Part shown: positions 10,264-61,430 of the stretch, in pieces | Position numbering within the stretch: the stretch's first letter is position 1 | Layout of the letters: each line of letters opens with the position of its first letter | DNA from: Agreia pratensis | Lineage (GTDB): Bacteria; Actinomycetota; Actinomycetes; Actinomycetales; Microbacteriaceae | Assembly: GCF_900177685.1 (NCBI RefSeq) | Contig: NZ_FXAY01000002.1 | Location: 310,001-374,000 of the forward strand | Direction: 5' to 3' | Length of the DNA stretch: 64,000 bases | The notes under the pieces: generated by a model | The model's database searches: none | What the model was told of the DNA's origin: nothing | What the model saw: only the letters and a program-made list of their open reading frames with translations | Made by a program: the position numbers and the translations under genes

Positions 10264-12135
<1,872 letters not shown>

Positions 12136-12137
12136 TC

Positions 12138-12794
12138 GTGACTGACAAGTCAAACCCCGAGAACGGGCCTGACGAATCGGTCGACACCCCGTCGACAGGC
12201 TCAGGGAACGAATCGTTCCCCGAGCCTGCCGAGGGGCAGCCCGTCGAAGGCGCCACCGAAGACATGAACTTCGTCGAGGCCGAAGGCCCCGACGTCGAGA
12301 CTTCGCTGAGCGACGCCGACCTGAGCTTTCTCGAAGACGCGTCGACCGCGTCGAGCTCGACGGCTTCAGACGAGGTGCTGGCTGCTGAGCGGCTCGCCGA
12401 TCTGCAGCGCGTCACGGCCGAGTACGCCAACTACCGCAAGCGCACCGAGGCGAACCGTGAGATCGAGCGGGAGCGCACGGTCGGCGAGGTCGTGAAGGTT
12501 CTGTTGCCGGTGCTCGACGATCTCGACCGCGCTGAGAAGCACGGCGATCTCGGAGACGGGCCGTTCGCATCCATCGCGCAGAAGCTGCGCGGCGGCACCG
12601 AGCGCATGGGCCTCAAGCCCTTCGGCGCCGCAGGCGATGCCTTCGACCCGCAGCTGCACGAGGCGATCTTCCAGCAGCCGTCGGCCGAGGTCGAGGTCGA
12701 GACGGTCGCCGATGTGGTCGAGACCGGCTACTACCTCGGTTCCACGCTTCTGCGTGCGGCCAAGGTCGTCGTCTCGGCACCCGTCAGCGCGTAA
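12138..12794 (+). CDS. grpE: nucleotide exchange factor GrpE
   Basis: Releases ADP from DnaK. GTG start two bases after the dnaK stop. The 218-residue protein has a long disordered acidic N-terminus (to about residue 80), then the coiled coil beginning LADLQRVTAEYANYRKR and the beta-domain ending VVETGYYLG...LLRAAKVVVS. Residues 17-33 (TPSTGSGNESFPEPAEG) are encoded by a 50-base palindromic repeat that recurs elsewhere in the window, so the disordered tail has absorbed a repeat element in frame. The structured domains are untouched, so function should be normal. Confidence 0.95.
   Translation: MTDKSNPENGPDESVDTPSTGSGNESFPEPAEGQPVEGATEDMNFVEAEGPDVETSLSDADLSFLEDASTASSSTASDEVLAAERLADLQRVTAEYANYRKRTEANREIERERTVGEVVKVLLPVLDDLDRAEKHGDLGDGPFASIAQKLRGGTERMGLKPFGAAGDAFDPQLHEAIFQQPSAEVEVETVADVVETGYYLGSTLLRAAKVVVSAPVSA
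12187..12236. repeat. family A palindromic repeat inside the grpE coding sequence
   Basis: Left arm CCCCGTCGACAGGCTCAGGG (12187-12206) and right arm GTTCCCCGAGCCTGCCGAGG (12215-12234) form a nearly perfect hairpin. It matches the intergenic copy at 12811-12866 and the half copy in the permease gene at 21906-21930. It keeps the grpE frame and adds a Ser/Gly/Pro/Glu stretch. Confidence 0.85.
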
Positions 12795-12810: not shown

Positions 12811-12866
12811 GCCCCTTCGACAAGCTCAGGGAGCGGATCCCGCTCCCTGAGCCTGTCGAAGGGCTG
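12811..12866. repeat. family A palindromic repeat between grpE and dnaJ
   Basis: Arms AGCCCCTTCGACAAGCTCAG and CTGAGCCTGTCGAAGGGCT surround GGAGCGGATCCCGCTCC; together a stem of about 26 base pairs with a three-base loop. Same core as the copy in grpE. In the operon mRNA this hairpin could stabilise or attenuate dnaJ-hspR. There is no T run, so it is not a classical intrinsic terminator. Confidence 0.88.
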
Positions 12867-20380: not shown

Positions 20381-21949
20381 TCAGTCGGTCGATGTTCCGC
20401 GCTTCAGCGTCTTTCCGGTGAAGAACGCGGGGTTCACCGCGCGCATCACGAACATCAGTGCGACCCCCGCGAGCAGCAGGAATGCGCCGAGGATGAACAC
20501 GAGGCCGAGTCCGCCGATGTTCGAGCCGCTGCCATAGTCGGGGTTCATCGAGTCGATCAGGGTGGTCACGAAGATCACCGCGAGAATCACCCCGCCCACG
20601 AGTGGCGCGAGGAACTTGAAGAAGAACGATCGGGCACTGGAGAAGGCCTCTTTACGGAAATACCAGACGCACGCGAGAGCGGTGACTCCGTAGTAGAAGC
20701 AAATCATCATGCCCAGCGTCAGGATGGTGTCGGTGAGCACATCGTTCGACAGCACCCGCATCACGGCGTAGAAGCCCCAGGCCACGACGCCCGCGATGAT
20801 GGTGGCGAAGCCCGGTGACTTGAAGCGCGGGCTGATCGATGCGAACCGCTTCGGGAAGGCCTGGTAGTGGCCCATCGCCAGCATCGTGCGCGCGGGGCCG
20901 ACGAAGGTCGACTGCAGCGAGGCGGCCGAGCTCGACAGAACTGCGAGAGACAGCAGGATGGCGAAGGGTCCCATGATCGGTCCGGCCAGCGCCGCGAAGA
21001 CGTTGCCCGAGATGTCTTCGTTGCCGAGCCCGAGTTCACCGGCACCGATGCCCGAGAACATGAGGCTCGCGACCGCCACGAGGATGTAGAGAACGAAGAT
21101 GATGCCGACGGTCAGTGTCGCCGCGCGACCCGGCGTGGTCTTCGGGTTCTTCGTCTCCTCGTTCATCGTGAGCGTCACATCCCAGCCCCAGAAGATGAAG
21201 ATCGAGAGCGAGACGCCGGCCGCGAAGGCCGAGAATGAGGCAACACCGAAGGGGTTGAACCACTCGATACTGAAGGGCGTCGCGTCGAAGGCAGAGCCGT
21301 CGGCGAAGTGGACGATGGCGGCGATCGCGAACCAGACGAGCACCACGAGTTGGAAGCCGACCAGCCAGTACTGCAGTGACTTCGTCGTCTCCATGCCTCG
21401 ATACGAGACGTAGCAGGCGCCCACCATGAAGACCAGACAGGTGAGGATGTTGATGGGCACGTTTGCGGCGAGATCTGCGATGTCGGGGTTCTGGCTTATC
21501 TGCGAGATCGCAAGATAGAGAAAGTCGACGGCGACTCCAGCGAGGTTCGAGAGCACCACCACCGTGGCGACGATCAGGCCCCATCCGCCGAGCCAGCCGA
21601 GCCACGGACCGAAGGCGCGCGTCGCCCAGGTGAACGACGTGCCGCTGTCGGGCATGGCGTTGTTCAGTTCGCGGTAGCCGAGCGCCACCAAAAGCATGGG
21701 CAGGAAGCCCACAAGGAAGATGCCGGGCATCTGCGTTCCGACGGCGGCGGCAGTCGGGCCGAGTGACGCCGTCAACGTGTACGCCGGCGCGATGCACGAG
21801 ATGCCGATGACGGTGGCTCCGAGCAGACCGATGGAGCCGGCCGAGAGACCTTTCGACGAGAGACCCGTCTTCGCATCCGCGGCGTCGATGAAATCAACGC
21901 CGGCGTCGTTCCCTGAGCCTGTCGATGGGGCTGTGTTCTTGCGTGCCAT
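20381..21949 (-). CDS. APC-family amino acid / amine permease
   Basis: 522-residue secondary transporter with about 12-14 helices. The first helix carries ATVIGISCIAPAYTLTA, an APC-superfamily substrate-loop pattern, and the first loops contain ALGYRELNNAMPDSG. It is last in the amine-catabolism run (aldehyde dehydrogenase, gabT, amine oxidase, uspA, permease), so import of a biogenic amine or amino acid is likely. Residues 7-14 (APSTGSGN) of the cytoplasmic tail are encoded by a half copy of palindromic repeat family A, the same peptide seen in GrpE. ATG is preceded by AGAAGGA. Confidence 0.87.
   Translation of the reverse strand: MARKNTAPSTGSGNDAGVDFIDAADAKTGLSSKGLSAGSIGLLGATVIGISCIAPAYTLTASLGPTAAAVGTQMPGIFLVGFLPMLLVALGYRELNNAMPDSGTSFTWATRAFGPWLGWLGGWGLIVATVVVLSNLAGVAVDFLYLAISQISQNPDIADLAANVPINILTCLVFMVGACYVSYRGMETTKSLQYWLVGFQLVVLVWFAIAAIVHFADGSAFDATPFSIEWFNPFGVASFSAFAAGVSLSIFIFWGWDVTLTMNEETKNPKTTPGRAATLTVGIIFVLYILVAVASLMFSGIGAGELGLGNEDISGNVFAALAGPIMGPFAILLSLAVLSSSAASLQSTFVGPARTMLAMGHYQAFPKRFASISPRFKSPGFATIIAGVVAWGFYAVMRVLSNDVLTDTILTLGMMICFYYGVTALACVWYFRKEAFSSARSFFFKFLAPLVGGVILAVIFVTTLIDSMNPDYGSGSNIGGLGLVFILGAFLLLAGVALMFVMRAVNPAFFTGKTLKRGTSTD
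21906..21930. repeat. family A half-repeat inside the permease coding sequence
   Basis: One arm (GTTCCCTGAGCCTGTCGATG) of the palindrome seen at 12187-12236 and 12811-12866. On the - strand it is read as PSTGSGN in the protein N-terminus. The second arm is missing or has diverged beyond recognition. Confidence 0.75.
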
Positions 21950-24790: not shown

Positions 24791-24812
24791 GGGTTCAGTC
24801 TTTCTCTGTTGT

Positions 24813-24904
24813 CGCTGGTCGAGTAGTCGCGCGAGGAACGAGCCGGCGTATCGAGACCCGCCGCGGTGATCTCGATACGTTCGTGCCTCGCTACTCGATC
24901 AGCG
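24813..24904. repeat. family B inverted repeat, copy 1
   Basis: Arm 1 at 24813-24858 runs from CGCTGGTCGAGTAG to CGTATCGAGACC; arm 2 at 24869-24904 is its inverse, from ATCTCGATACG to CTACTCGATCAGCG. The second arm overlaps the 3' end of gabT and supplies its last codons and TAG stop. Other copies are at 39229, 46995 and 61317. Confidence 0.85.
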
Positions 24905-26237
24905 CGTTCATGCGGACGGCGTCTTCGAGCACACTGATTCCCTCGAGAAGCAGCGCATCGTCGATGACCAGCGAGGGGAGGAGGCGGATGACATTGCCGT
25001 AGGTTCCGCAGGTGAGAATGATGACGCCCGACTCGAGAGCGGCAGCAGCGACGCGTCTGGTGATGTCGGCATCCGGTTCTGTGGTGCCGGGACGCACGAA
25101 CTCGATCGCGAGCATCGCTCCTCTGCCGCGCACGTCGCCGATGACGCCGGTCGCATCGGCCAGGGCGTGCAGTCGGGGCAGCACGATCTCCTCGATGTGT
25201 CGCGCGCGGCCGGCCAGGTCGTGCTCGCGCATCTGGGCGATGGATGCGACTGCCGCGGCACACGCGATCGGGTTGCCGCCGTAGGTGCCTCCGAGGCCGC
25301 CGGGATGCACGGCATCCATCAGCTCGGCCCGGCCGACGACGGCTGCCAGCGGGAGCCCGCCCGCGATGCCCTTGGCGAGGGTGAGGATGTCGGGAACGAT
25401 GCCCTCGTCGTCGCTGGCGAACCAGGAGCCCGTGCGGGCGAAGCCCGTCTGCACCTCGTCGGCGATGAACACGACTCCGTTGGCCGTGGCCCAGGCGCTG
25501 AGGGTCGGGAGGAATCCGGGCGCGGGCACGATGAAGCCGCCCTCGCCCTGGATGGGCTCGATGATGAGCGCGGCGACCTGGTCGCCGCCCAGCTGCTTCT
25601 CGATGGCGAGGATGGCCCGCTTCGCGGCGTCGACGCCCGAGAGGCCGGCCTCATCGCGGAAGGGATACGACATGGGCATGCGGTAGACCTCGGGCGCGAA
25701 CGGCCCGAAGTTGGTCTTGTACGGCATGGCCTTGGCGGTGAGTGCCATGGTGAGGTTCGTGCGGCCGTGATAGGCGTGGTCGAAGGCGACGACCGCATCG
25801 CGACCCGTGGCGAGCCGGGCGACCTTGATCGCGTTCTCGACCGCCTCCGCACCCGAGTTGAAGAGCGCCGAGCGCTTCTCGTGGTCACCGGGAGTCAGCT
25901 CTGCAAGCAGTTCGGCGACCTCGACGTAGCCCTCGTAGGGCGTGATCGTGAAGCAGGTGTGCGCGAAGTGGGTGGACTGCTCGGTGACCGCCGCGGCGAC
26001 GGCCGGGTTGGATGCTCCGACACTGGTGACCGCGATGCCGGCGCCCAGGTCGATGAACGAGTTGCCGTCGACATCGACGACGACCCCGCCGTCGGCATCC
26101 GCCGCATAGACGGGAACGAGCGACGAGACGCCGGCCGACACGGCCTTGCGGCGGCGCTCGGTGAGAGCGGCCGACTTCGGCCCGGGGAAAGCTCCCGTGA
26201 TGCGCCGTTCCTGCGGCAGGCGATGCGTGATGGTCAT
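24891..26237 (-). CDS. gabT: 4-aminobutyrate aminotransferase
   Basis: PLP enzyme moving the amino group of GABA to 2-oxoglutarate, giving succinate semialdehyde. 448 residues of class III aminotransferase: SGAEAVENAIK (about 117-127), FIADEVQTGFARTG (about 251-264) with the PLP aspartate, and the lysine in LTLAKGIAGGLP (about 280-291). The AAGGAGAG ribosome-binding site lies eight bases before the ATG. It sits 10 bases after the aldehyde dehydrogenase, so the two are one transcript. The C-terminus LIE and stop codon come from repeat family B. Confidence 0.92.
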   Translation of the reverse strand: MTITHRLPQERRITGAFPGPKSAALTERRRKAVSAGVSSLVPVYAADADGGVVVDVDGNSFIDLGAGIAVTSVGASNPAVAAAVTEQSTHFAHTCFTITPYEGYVEVAELLAELTPGDHEKRSALFNSGAEAVENAIKVARLATGRDAVVAFDHAYHGRTNLTMALTAKAMPYKTNFGPFAPEVYRMPMSYPFRDEAGLSGVDAAKRAILAIEKQLGGDQVAALIIEPIQGEGGFIVPAPGFLPTLSAWATANGVVFIADEVQTGFARTGSWFASDDEGIVPDILTLAKGIAGGLPLAAVVGRAELMDAVHPGGLGGTYGGNPIACAAAVASIAQMREHDLAGRARHIEEIVLPRLHALADATGVIGDVRGRGAMLAIEFVRPGTTEPDADITRRVAAAALESGVIILTCGTYGNVIRLLPSLVIDDALLLEGISVLEDAVRMNALIE

Positions 26238-33157: not shown

Positions 33158-33290
33158 TGTTCAAGCCTACAAAGACGGGTGCGCCTGGCATCAGTCACAG
33201 AGCCCGAGTGCGCCAGCTCGGGGGTCATGAGCCCGATGCGTTTTTCACCGACGAGCATGGCGCCATCGTGCCAGATCAGCCTCGGCTTTC

Positions 33291-33419
33291 GAGGTGTGGC
33301 ATTTGGCCCTTCCAGGCGTGGACGAAGGGCGAAATGACGCCACTCGATCGCGAGTCGCTTTTTGAGTGGTGGCATATGGCCCTTCCTGAGGGCTGCGAAG
33401 GGCGAAATGACGCCACTCG
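33291..33419. repeat. tandem pair of family C hairpins
   Basis: Two successive inverted repeats of 56-57 bases, 33291-33347 and 33364-33419, separated by 16 bases. The second has left arm GAGTGGTGGCATATGGCCCT and right arm AGGGCGAAATGACGCCACTC; the first differs at few positions. Part of a gene-free stretch of 425 bases (33158-33582) that otherwise holds only the clpB promoter. Related hairpins are at 20312 and 42799. Confidence 0.88.
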
Positions 33420-33510
33420 ACTCCGCACGGAAAGCTCTCGTGATCCATGTCGCGTCCGGCCTGAGGTCATCGAGGGAATGCTGTAGCGCCCACGCGGCGT
33501 TAACGATAAA

Positions 33511-37676: not shown

Positions 37677-39212
37677 ATGTCCACAACAGACTCATCTACG
37701 GGAGATTCACACCCGGTCGAGGATTCTCCCCAGAAGCAGGACTTCTCGCATGAGCAGGAGGGGTATCACAAGACCCTCAAGCCCCGGCAGTTGCAGATGA
37801 TCGCCATCGGCGGCGCGATCGGAACGGGTCTGTTCCTGGGCGCCGGTGGGCGGCTCGCGTCGGCCGGGCCGTCGCTCGTGATCGTCTACGCGATCTGCGG
37901 GTTCTTCGCGTTCCTGATCTTGCGGGCCCTCGGCGAGCTGGTGCTGCACCGGCCGTCATCCGGCTCATTCATCTCGTACGCGCGTGAGTTCTTCGGCGAG
38001 AAGATGGCGTTCGTGGCCGGCTGGATGTACTTCTTGAACTGGGCCATGACGGCCATCGTCGACGTCACCGCGGTGGCTCTGTACGTGAAGTTCTGGTCGG
38101 CGTTCACCGACGTTCCGCAGTGGCTGCTCGCCCTCATCGCCCTGGCAATCGTTCTGAGTCTCAACCTCGTGTCGGTGAAGGTCTTCGGCGAGATGGAGTT
38201 CTGGTTCGCGATCATCAAGGTCGTGGCCCTCGTGGCGTTCCTGATCATCGGCGTCGTGTTCTTGGCTTTCAACTTCCCGACCGACGTGGGCAACGGCCAG
38301 ACCGGTTTCGCCCTTCTGGCAGACAACGGCGGCTTCTTCCCGCAGGGCCTGCTGCCCGCCGTGCTTGTCATTCAGGGCGTCGTCTTCGCTTACGCGGCCA
38401 TCGAGCTGGTGGGCACCGCAGCAGGCGAGACCGCCGACCCCAAGAAGATCATGCCGAAGGCCGTCAACACGGTCGTCATCCGCATCGCTGTCTTCTACGT
38501 CGGATCGGTGCTGCTGCTGTCGCTTCTGCTTCCGTACACCGCATACAAGGCAGGCGAGAGCCCGTTCGTCACGTTCTTCTCGAGCATCGGCAGCCCCGAG
38601 GTCGGAGCCATCGCCGGAAACATCATGAACTTCGTCGTTCTCACGGCGGCCCTCTCGAGCTTGAACGCCGGGCTCTACTCGACCGGTCGCATCCTGCGTT
38701 CGATGTCTGAAGCCGGGGCGGCGCCGAAGTTCACCGGGCGCATGAACAAGTCGGGTGTGCCGTACGGAGGAATCCTGTTGACCGCAGCCATCACGCTGCT
38801 TGGCGTGGGACTCAACGCGATCGTTCCCGAGCAGGCGTTCGAGATCGTGCTCAATGTGTCGGCCCTCGGAATCATCAGCGGTTGGGGCACGATCATCCTC
38901 TGCCAGATGCGGCTGCAGAAGTGGGCGAAAGAGGGCAAGCTCGAGCGGCCGGCCTTCAGGCTGTTCGGTGCGCCGTTCACCTCGTGGCTCACGCTCGCGT
39001 TCCTTGCGACCGTGCTCGTGCTGATGGCCGTCGACTTTCCGGTGGGCACCATCACGATCTCGTCGCTCGTGCTCATCATTCCGTTGCTCATCATCGGCTG
39101 GTACGCCAGCCGCGACCGCATCAAGGCGATCGCGGCCGCTCGCGAGGGCTACACCGGGGCGTTCCCCGTGGTGGCGGAGCGCCCCGGCGACGGTCGCGGC
39201 ACCAAGAAGTAG
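37677..39212 (+). CDS. ansP: L-asparagine permease
   Basis: 511-residue proton-coupled amino-acid transporter with 12 helices. It matches the E. coli AnsP pattern closely: EEGYHK-type start ([20 protein letters not shown]), [55 protein letters not shown] and [10 protein letters not shown]. Asparagine specificity is therefore well supported, though relatives carry GABA or aromatic amino acids. ATG at 37677 is preceded by GAGG. A conspicuous inverted repeat lies in its leader; repeat family B lies after its stop. Confidence 0.93.
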
Positions 39213-39228
39213 CGCTCTCGTTGCCTGT

Positions 39229-39320
39229 GGTCTCGATACGCCGGCTCGTTCCTCGCGCGGCTACTCGACCAGCGAAGGCCTCGCTGGTCGAGTAGGTCGC
39301 CCCGCGACCGTATCGAGACC
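39229..39320. repeat. family B inverted repeat, copy 2
   Basis: Arm GGTCTCGATACG...CTACTCGACCAGCG (39229-39274) followed after seven bases by its inverse CGCTGGTCGAGTAG...CGTATCGAGACC (39282-39320). It sits between the convergent ansP and nitroreductase genes. Arm order is opposite to copies 1, 3 and 4. Confidence 0.88.
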
Positions 39321-46994: not shown

Positions 46995-47089
46995 GCGTTG
47001 GTCGAGTAGGCCGCCCGCGGCCGTATCGAGACCACTGGCGGGTGGTCTCGATACGTCGACTCCTTCGTCGCGCGACTACTCGACCGGCG
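46995..47089. repeat. family B inverted repeat, copy 3
   Basis: Arm 1 GCGTTGGTCGAGTAG...CGTATCGAGACC (46995-47033) and arm 2 GGTCTCGATACG...CTACTCGACCGGCG (47044-47089). Between two same-strand MFS genes; it could separate their transcripts. Confidence 0.87.
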
Positions 47090-47152
47090 CAGAACGCGCA
47101 CTCGACCCGCGGGCGGGGGCGGGTGACCTCGAAACGCCCGTAGCCTGAGAGG

Positions 47153-61316: not shown

Positions 61317-61411
61317 GCGCTGGTCGAGTAGCGAGGAACGAGCGTATCGAGACCATCGTGACGTGATTTCGATACACCGGCTCGTCCCTCGCGCGGCTAC
61401 TCAATCAGCGC
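61317..61411. repeat. family B inverted repeat, copy 4
   Basis: Arm 1 GCGCTGGTCGAGTAG...CGTATCGAGACC (61317-61354); arm 2 ATTTCGATACACCGG...CTACTCAATCAGCGC (61366-61411), with several substitutions relative to the other copies. Between the convergent AEC and xthA genes. Confidence 0.85.
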
Positions 61412-61430
61412 AGGATGCCGGGCACGCAAT

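Follow-up and report, generated by a model that had tools for sequence, protein, structure and literature searches.

A 23-nt REP-like DNA repeat multiplies in some Microbacteriaceae, and in Agreia it has very probably inserted into existing genes, where the copies that are in frame, exposed, and non-damaging would have survived, most likely as tolerated passengers. Most copies are located between genes, mainly a few bases past a stop codon, and the copies within genes are read mostly as PSTGSGN, FPEPVEG, or LRQAQG. The window, i.e., the whole 64,000-nt stretch analysed here, belongs to a 3.58-Mb Agreia genome (G000) of a free-living actinobacterium with 68% G+C, with which relatives coded G001–G007 were compared.

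The repeat unit and its copies in the window

Alignment of 140 units from G003 yielded the 23-nt consensus CCCTTCGACARGCTCAGGGAACG, with sharp edges in that genome: agreement was 88–100% per position, the R position excepted, and mostly 30–60% outside the 23 nt. The unit occurs singly, in tandem, and as inverted pairs, with pair spacers of 5–28 nt and both the '+-' and '-+' orders present among the G003 units. Single units were unfolded (monomer z-scores of 0.48, -0.29, and 0.02), and inverted pairs folded (z of -6.61 for the pair in grpE and -9.44 for the pair in the grpE–dnaJ gap). Because the spacer and order of the pairs vary, the hairpin is an arrangement rather than the element, and a fixed hairpin element was ruled out by this variation together with the conserved 23-nt block. 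The orientation of units relative to genes showed no clear bias (33 antisense vs 25 sense). Three weak Rfam matches to microRNA models, all under the gathering score, were taken as chance matches to a hairpin.

Five units with 1–3 mismatches to the consensus were located in the window, namely an inverted pair in grpE, a second such pair in the grpE–dnaJ gap, and a lone unit in a permease gene, and 17-mer matches with no more than two mismatches numbered four against 0.03 expected. The features are as follows.

12138..12794, + strand: grpE, with a GTG start 2 nt past the dnaK stop and the repeat in its N-terminal tail
12188..12210, + strand: 23-nt unit in grpE, read as PSTGSGN, 1 mismatch to consensus
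12214..12236, - strand: inverted 23-nt unit in grpE, gene-strand reading (N)ESFPEPAEG, 3 mismatches
12813..12835, + strand: unit in the grpE–dnaJ intergenic region, 1 mismatch
12841..12863, - strand: inverted unit in the grpE–dnaJ intergenic region, 1 mismatch; the hairpin is kept in G000–G006
20381..21949, - strand: gene of an amino acid permease (PF13520) whose N-terminal tail contains the repeat
21907..21929, - strand: single unit in the permease N-terminus, read as PSTGSGN, 1 mismatch, 47 nt past the stop of the upstream gene

A preliminary description of this DNA had reported a 50-base hairpin at 12187–12236 inside grpE, the same element after grpE, and a half copy in the permease. The first was confirmed as two inverted units in frame within the grpE open reading frame (translation TPSTGSGNESFPEPAEG; repeat-derived residues in the GrpE stretch PSTGSGNESFPEPAEG), and the second as the intergenic inverted pair. 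For the permease the PSTGSGN reading stood, but the supposed half copy is the unit itself and the hairpin is two units. Some matches with two or three mismatches are native codons, as for the AFDKLNE codons of DnaK at window position 11957.

Comparison of grpE among the eight Agreia genomes revealed the full hairpin in G000 and G001, an everted order in G002–G005 (NSFPEPVEG, spacer, and PSTGSGS in succession, or variants of these peptides), a decayed everted form in G006, and no repeat in G007, with length differences that were all multiples of 3. The first unit begins 53 nt (G000) or 23 nt (G003) past the dnaK stop. These forms indicate that insertion into grpE predates the divergence of most Agreia species and that reshuffling followed; the insertion is old and rearranged, and grpE alone provides no clean empty site. 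GrpE N-termini were also read at 73 of 80 named loci (seven were not found), and the matches in Agromyces italicus (L040) and in Humibacter (L058), with 2 mismatches of 17 apiece, are at most suggestive of independent gains, since the native DnaK codons score equally.

Other repeats were also noted in the window. A second family, GGTCTCGATACGC...GGCTACTCGACCAGCG and its complement, occurs as long copies in inverted orientation, with complementarity of up to 98%, at 24812–24905, 39207–39282, 47022–47097, and 61317–61418. At 33282–33420, two tandem, imperfectly palindromic 66-nt copies are 80% alike and 73 nt apart.

Abundance and placement of the unit

In the whole G000 genome, 26 exact 16-mers were detected vs 0 in the reversed control, and a 19-mer search that allowed up to 3 mismatches gave 75 matches vs 4 in the control; the site survey of this genome at up to 3 mismatches comprised 47 sites. 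Units with at most 1 mismatch of 16 numbered 50, 110, 53, 482, 278, 68, 11, and 1 in G000–G007, respectively (reversed control 0–1), i.e., copy number varies up to several hundredfold among Agreia species, and G006 had seven matches in 800 kb. Exact copies were found in 28 of the 199 genomes and 16 of the 85 genera of the family sample, with hundreds in two genera (g51 and g72), and 6 of 159 genomes in the phylum sample matched, with one copy each, G000 excepted. In a 200-kb sample from another genus (G078), one of 14 sites was located within a gene, namely a 48-nt tandem array of units (G078:C1:296750, L310) that is read as PSTGSGTVGSTGSGTV repeats within a 408-residue open reading frame.

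Placement was analysed in an 800-kb sample of G003 (92% coding according to a simple purpose-made gene caller), where the 140 units form 70 sites against 0 in the reversed control. Fifty sites were intergenic, four lay partly in a gene, and 16 lay in genes, one of which (HFYKLMG) was a chance or native match, since G006 carries nearly identical residues. Of the intergenic sites, 30 were in unidirectional gaps, 16 in convergent gaps, and 4 in divergent gaps, the last type being depleted (p = 3e-5), and in 25 of the 30 unidirectional sites the distance from the upstream stop to the start of the site was 2–26 nt. One intergenic site had a clear empty counterpart, with 52 nt in G003 that are absent from G001, G002, and G005. 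No target-site duplication or terminal inverted repeats were visible by eye at the one clean empty site, and the edges were unclear at five of the six sites viewed. In G005, a full in-frame hairpin, FPSTGSGNEPFPEPVEG, was observed between two pyruvate dehydrogenase-type genes (L009, 1495–1570); it is open into the E2 reading frame and probably lies upstream of the E2 start.

Of the 15 non-native sites in genes, four were close to the protein start (no more than 45 residues away) and five close to its end (no more than 40). The N-terminal copies lay 22–53 nt past the upstream stop (47–49 nt for the amino acid permease and 22 nt for an ABC permease), a zone near the intergenic landing zone and somewhat further downstream. 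Thus, grpE and the two permeases may have been hit at their N-termini because these genes start right past an upstream stop, in the favoured landing zone, and a preference for disordered tails need not be invoked. The earlier proposal that the repeat spreads into disordered protein tails while keeping frame was upheld as to frame, but internal loops and linkers are also hit. In-gene copies were always in an open frame, a statement that applies to called genes only; a direct count of in-frame survival is impossible because genes broken by out-of-frame copies go uncalled. Under the favoured explanation, the 23-nt unit would have been inserted into existing genes, and only those insertions that were in frame, solvent-exposed, and non-damaging would have survived.

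Filled and unfilled orthologues

Insertion is illustrated by phosphoglucomutase (PGM), isoleucyl-tRNA synthetase (IleRS), and a PuuD-like amidase, which contain the repeat in three, three, and two of the eight Agreia genomes, respectively. The filled PGM genes (G000, G003, and G004) read CTG GCC CTT CGA CAG GCT CAG GGA ACG, encoding ALRQAQG, and the unfilled ones (G001, G002, G005, and G006) read CTG GC(G/C) CAT CCG (A/G)AT GAG CC(G/C) and have exactly 8 fewer codons at this place; the loop of G007 is unrelated and intermediate in length. The PGM insert corresponds to a 9-residue gap in the PDB homologue 9v68, and in the structure model (pLDDT 87) it is predicted to extend helix 118–136 and the loop preceding strand 147–152. 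The comparison took in 10 of the 16 genomes sought for PGM and 9 of 12 for the permease. IleRS, a single essential enzyme by annotation, carries a single unit in each of G000 and G004, a tandem pair in G003, and none in the other five genomes, so that the filled loops are longer by 8 or 16 codons than those of G001, G002, G005, and G007, and by 5 or 13 than that of G006; a PDB search added little, with an alignment that was loose at the insert. The PuuD-like amidase of G000 and G003 has a 24-codon loop with two units, compared with 3–4 codons in G001, G002, G004, G005, and G006 (20–21 fewer) and ten in G007, and its structure model was poor (mean pLDDT 39, 8 sequences).

For these three proteins, the alignment of orthologues that the preliminary description had proposed as a check showed that relatives devoid of the repeat are also missing the residues it encodes. 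For the two proteins it had named, the outcome was mixed: the N-terminus of the amino acid permease is repeat-spelled in only five of eight genomes (G000, G001, G003, G004, and G005, not G002, G006, or G007), and grpE is not clean. The FPEPVEG copy at 881487 in G003 aligns to G006 with no change in length, the G006 stretch being equally long and unrelated, and for 7 of the 16 host genes in G003 the G006 sample offered no match.

An intragenic unit may also duplicate in multiples of 3 nt, which would yield longer Gly/Ser linkers; the tandem units of G003 IleRS are one sign of such growth. The G003 permease (L158) displays GSGN runs with tandem in-frame growth, like young protein microsatellites. 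PutA of G003 (C1:816123) has PSTGSGN and a Gly/Ser/Asn run in a linker, where 26 residues are without a counterpart in G006.

The PGM, IleRS, and PuuD-like inserts conflict with the species tree, a 13.4-kb concatenation of window genes in which G005 is nearest to G000: G000 shares them with G003 and not with its sister G005, and the PGM and IleRS inserts, not the PuuD-like one, are common to G004 too. Passage of short element-bearing alleles between Agreia species by homologous recombination, rather than repeated insertion or precise loss, has about an even chance of accounting for this pattern. The PGM inserts of G000 and G004 are almost identical base for base, also beyond the unit, and in IleRS the neighbouring residues are likewise shared between these two genomes despite the closer relationship of G000 to G005; such near-identity suggests allele exchange. 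In the PuuD-like gene, however, most spacer positions differ between G000 and G003, and the trees of the flanks match the species tree, which fits parallel insertion better.

Persistence, movement, and peptide spelling of the repeat

The copies could instead be kept by selection, those in genes serving as useful linkers and the intergenic ones as RNA hairpins that govern mRNA stability, as in the grpE–dnaJ gap. The hairpin in this gap is kept in seven Agreia genomes, and 6 of its 27 pairs have changed on both sides, but arm-templated repair of a palindrome would also yield paired changes, breaks affect 4 of the 27 pairs in one sequence and 2 pairs in two or more, and G007 has neither this hairpin nor the GrpE peptide. 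The avoidance of divergent promoter regions, the location past stop codons, and the continued in-frame growth of the PutA and permease linkers also speak for selection; against it stands the patchy presence of in-gene copies among close relatives. Selection is judged unlikely, an mRNA role of the grpE–dnaJ hairpin is possible, and the repeat peptides are most likely tolerated passengers.

As to how such passengers spread, the organisation of the unit (single, in tandem runs, or paired in inverted order, near gene 3' ends) resembles that of REP/BIME elements, and GTAG REPs are thought to be mobilised by a REP-associated tyrosine transposase (RAYT), the GTAG families often occurring with a RAYT gene according to Di Nocera et al. 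2013 (PMC3733652). Movement of the present unit by a transposase of this or the IS200/IS605 type is nevertheless improbable: the Y1_Tnp domain (PF01797) was found in one of 199 family genomes (G018), which lacks the exact unit, and, among the matches listed, in none of the 28 genomes that bear the repeat in the equally drawn family set. The family search took in G000–G003 of Agreia, and the G000 genome searched by itself had no such domain. Nine genes in the G003 sample have a unit no more than 250 bp away on either side, and none was transposase-like by eye.

Several known systems share features with the unit. The GTAG/CGTC REPs (PMC3733652) are similarly short, occur as monomers and inverted dimers, are mostly intergenic and near 3' ends, and are in some cases in frame within housekeeping genes, including those of tRNA synthetases, and at protein ends; they differ in their GTAG or CGTC tag and in a monomer that is itself a stem-loop (8–9 bp stem in the CGTC families). 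The 23-nt unit has no such tag, its other strand beginning with CGTT, one base from CGTC, and its monomer forms no stem-loop. The RPE elements of Rickettsia (Ogata et al. 2000, 2002; via PMC2229807, PMC10969869, and PMC3733652) are likewise found both between genes and in frame in unrelated conserved genes, a combination also seen here (in the G003 sample, 50 sites between genes and 15 non-native ones within them), but RPE-1-type elements are about 105–150 bp long, and for the 23-nt unit the palindrome is only one arrangement. REPIN/RAYT systems (PMC3116915, PMC2817692) also have inverted pairs and a copy number that varies between related strains; in contrast, no RAYT was found here and the pair spacer and order vary freely. 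The ERIC and Correia/NEMIS elements, MITEs fused in frame to genes (Delihas 2007, PMC2229807), are non-autonomous like the unit but about 100–170 bp long with terminal inverted repeats. RPE and MITE gene fusions are covered by that article and by a 2024 MITE review (PMC10969869).

The phenomenon was initially regarded as RPE-like and undescribed for Microbacteriaceae. The likeness in kind fits, and the open-access literature, to which subscription papers are mostly external, yielded no earlier report of the repeat, of its peptides, or of actinobacterial in-frame REPs; the text of PMC3733652 does not mention Actinobact, Microbacter, Leifsonia, or Clavibacter. In-frame repeats beyond Rickettsia are nonetheless published, and the kind was already known, because PMC3733652 describes in-frame intragenic REPs in several species, in Rickettsia and several other phyla.

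The spelling of the peptides points to the repeat as their source. In the G003 genes PSTGSG is the commonest reading; LRQAQG and FPEPVEG also occur, with SLSLSKG types in two C-terminal regions and no FDRLRE. Twenty-nine readings pooled from G000 and G003 (picked by hand, leaving out native matches and copies upstream of a start codon, as for TrpS; the names RecQ, SMC, TrpS, and GabT were assigned by eye) comprised 12 PSTGSG, 8 FPEPVEG, 7 LRQAQG, 2 SLSLSKG, and 0 FDRLRE (chi-square p = 0.003). Among genes called in the G003 sample, STGSG is present seven times, four times spelled exactly as in the repeat and three times one codon off (chance of the exact spelling computed from codon usage, 5.7e-5), LRQAQG four times, three exact (2.1e-5), PEPVEG four times, three exact (1.8e-5), and SLSLSKG twice, both one codon off (2.0e-3). 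The codons TCA (3.0%), ACA (4.7%), CTT (3.8%), and CCT (4.6%) of the repeat are rare. Ancestral protein sequence with ordinary codon divergence, the outcome that would have spoken against an inserted repeat, was thus not seen, and on this codon evidence the peptides are derived from the repeat and not convergent. That they are ordinary Gly/Ser/Pro linkers that arose within proteins and resemble the repeat by convergence can be dismissed as very improbable: such composition is common in linkers and tails, the FPEPVEG copy at 881487 faces an equally long unrelated stretch, and some looser matches are native (DnaK FDKLNE), but exact rare-codon spelling far beyond chance contradicts convergence, three reading frames of one DNA word are present in genes, and the proteins of congeners are shorter at repeat sites.

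In its widest form the account is tentative: an actinobacterial 23-nt repeat may spread without a REP tyrosine transposase, land by preference right past stop codons, and so go on supplying housekeeping proteins with new tails and loops and with Gly/Ser linkers that grow, while element-bearing alleles cross between species. If this is true, the repeat would keep generating differences in protein length within Agreia. The in-gene copies extend protein-coding palindromic repeats to free-living, G+C-rich Actinobacteria. Stretches such as PSTGSGN, FPEPVEG, and LRQAQG may be mistaken by annotators for conserved protein motifs. The filled and unfilled versions of one enzyme in sister species make the cost of an insertion directly measurable.
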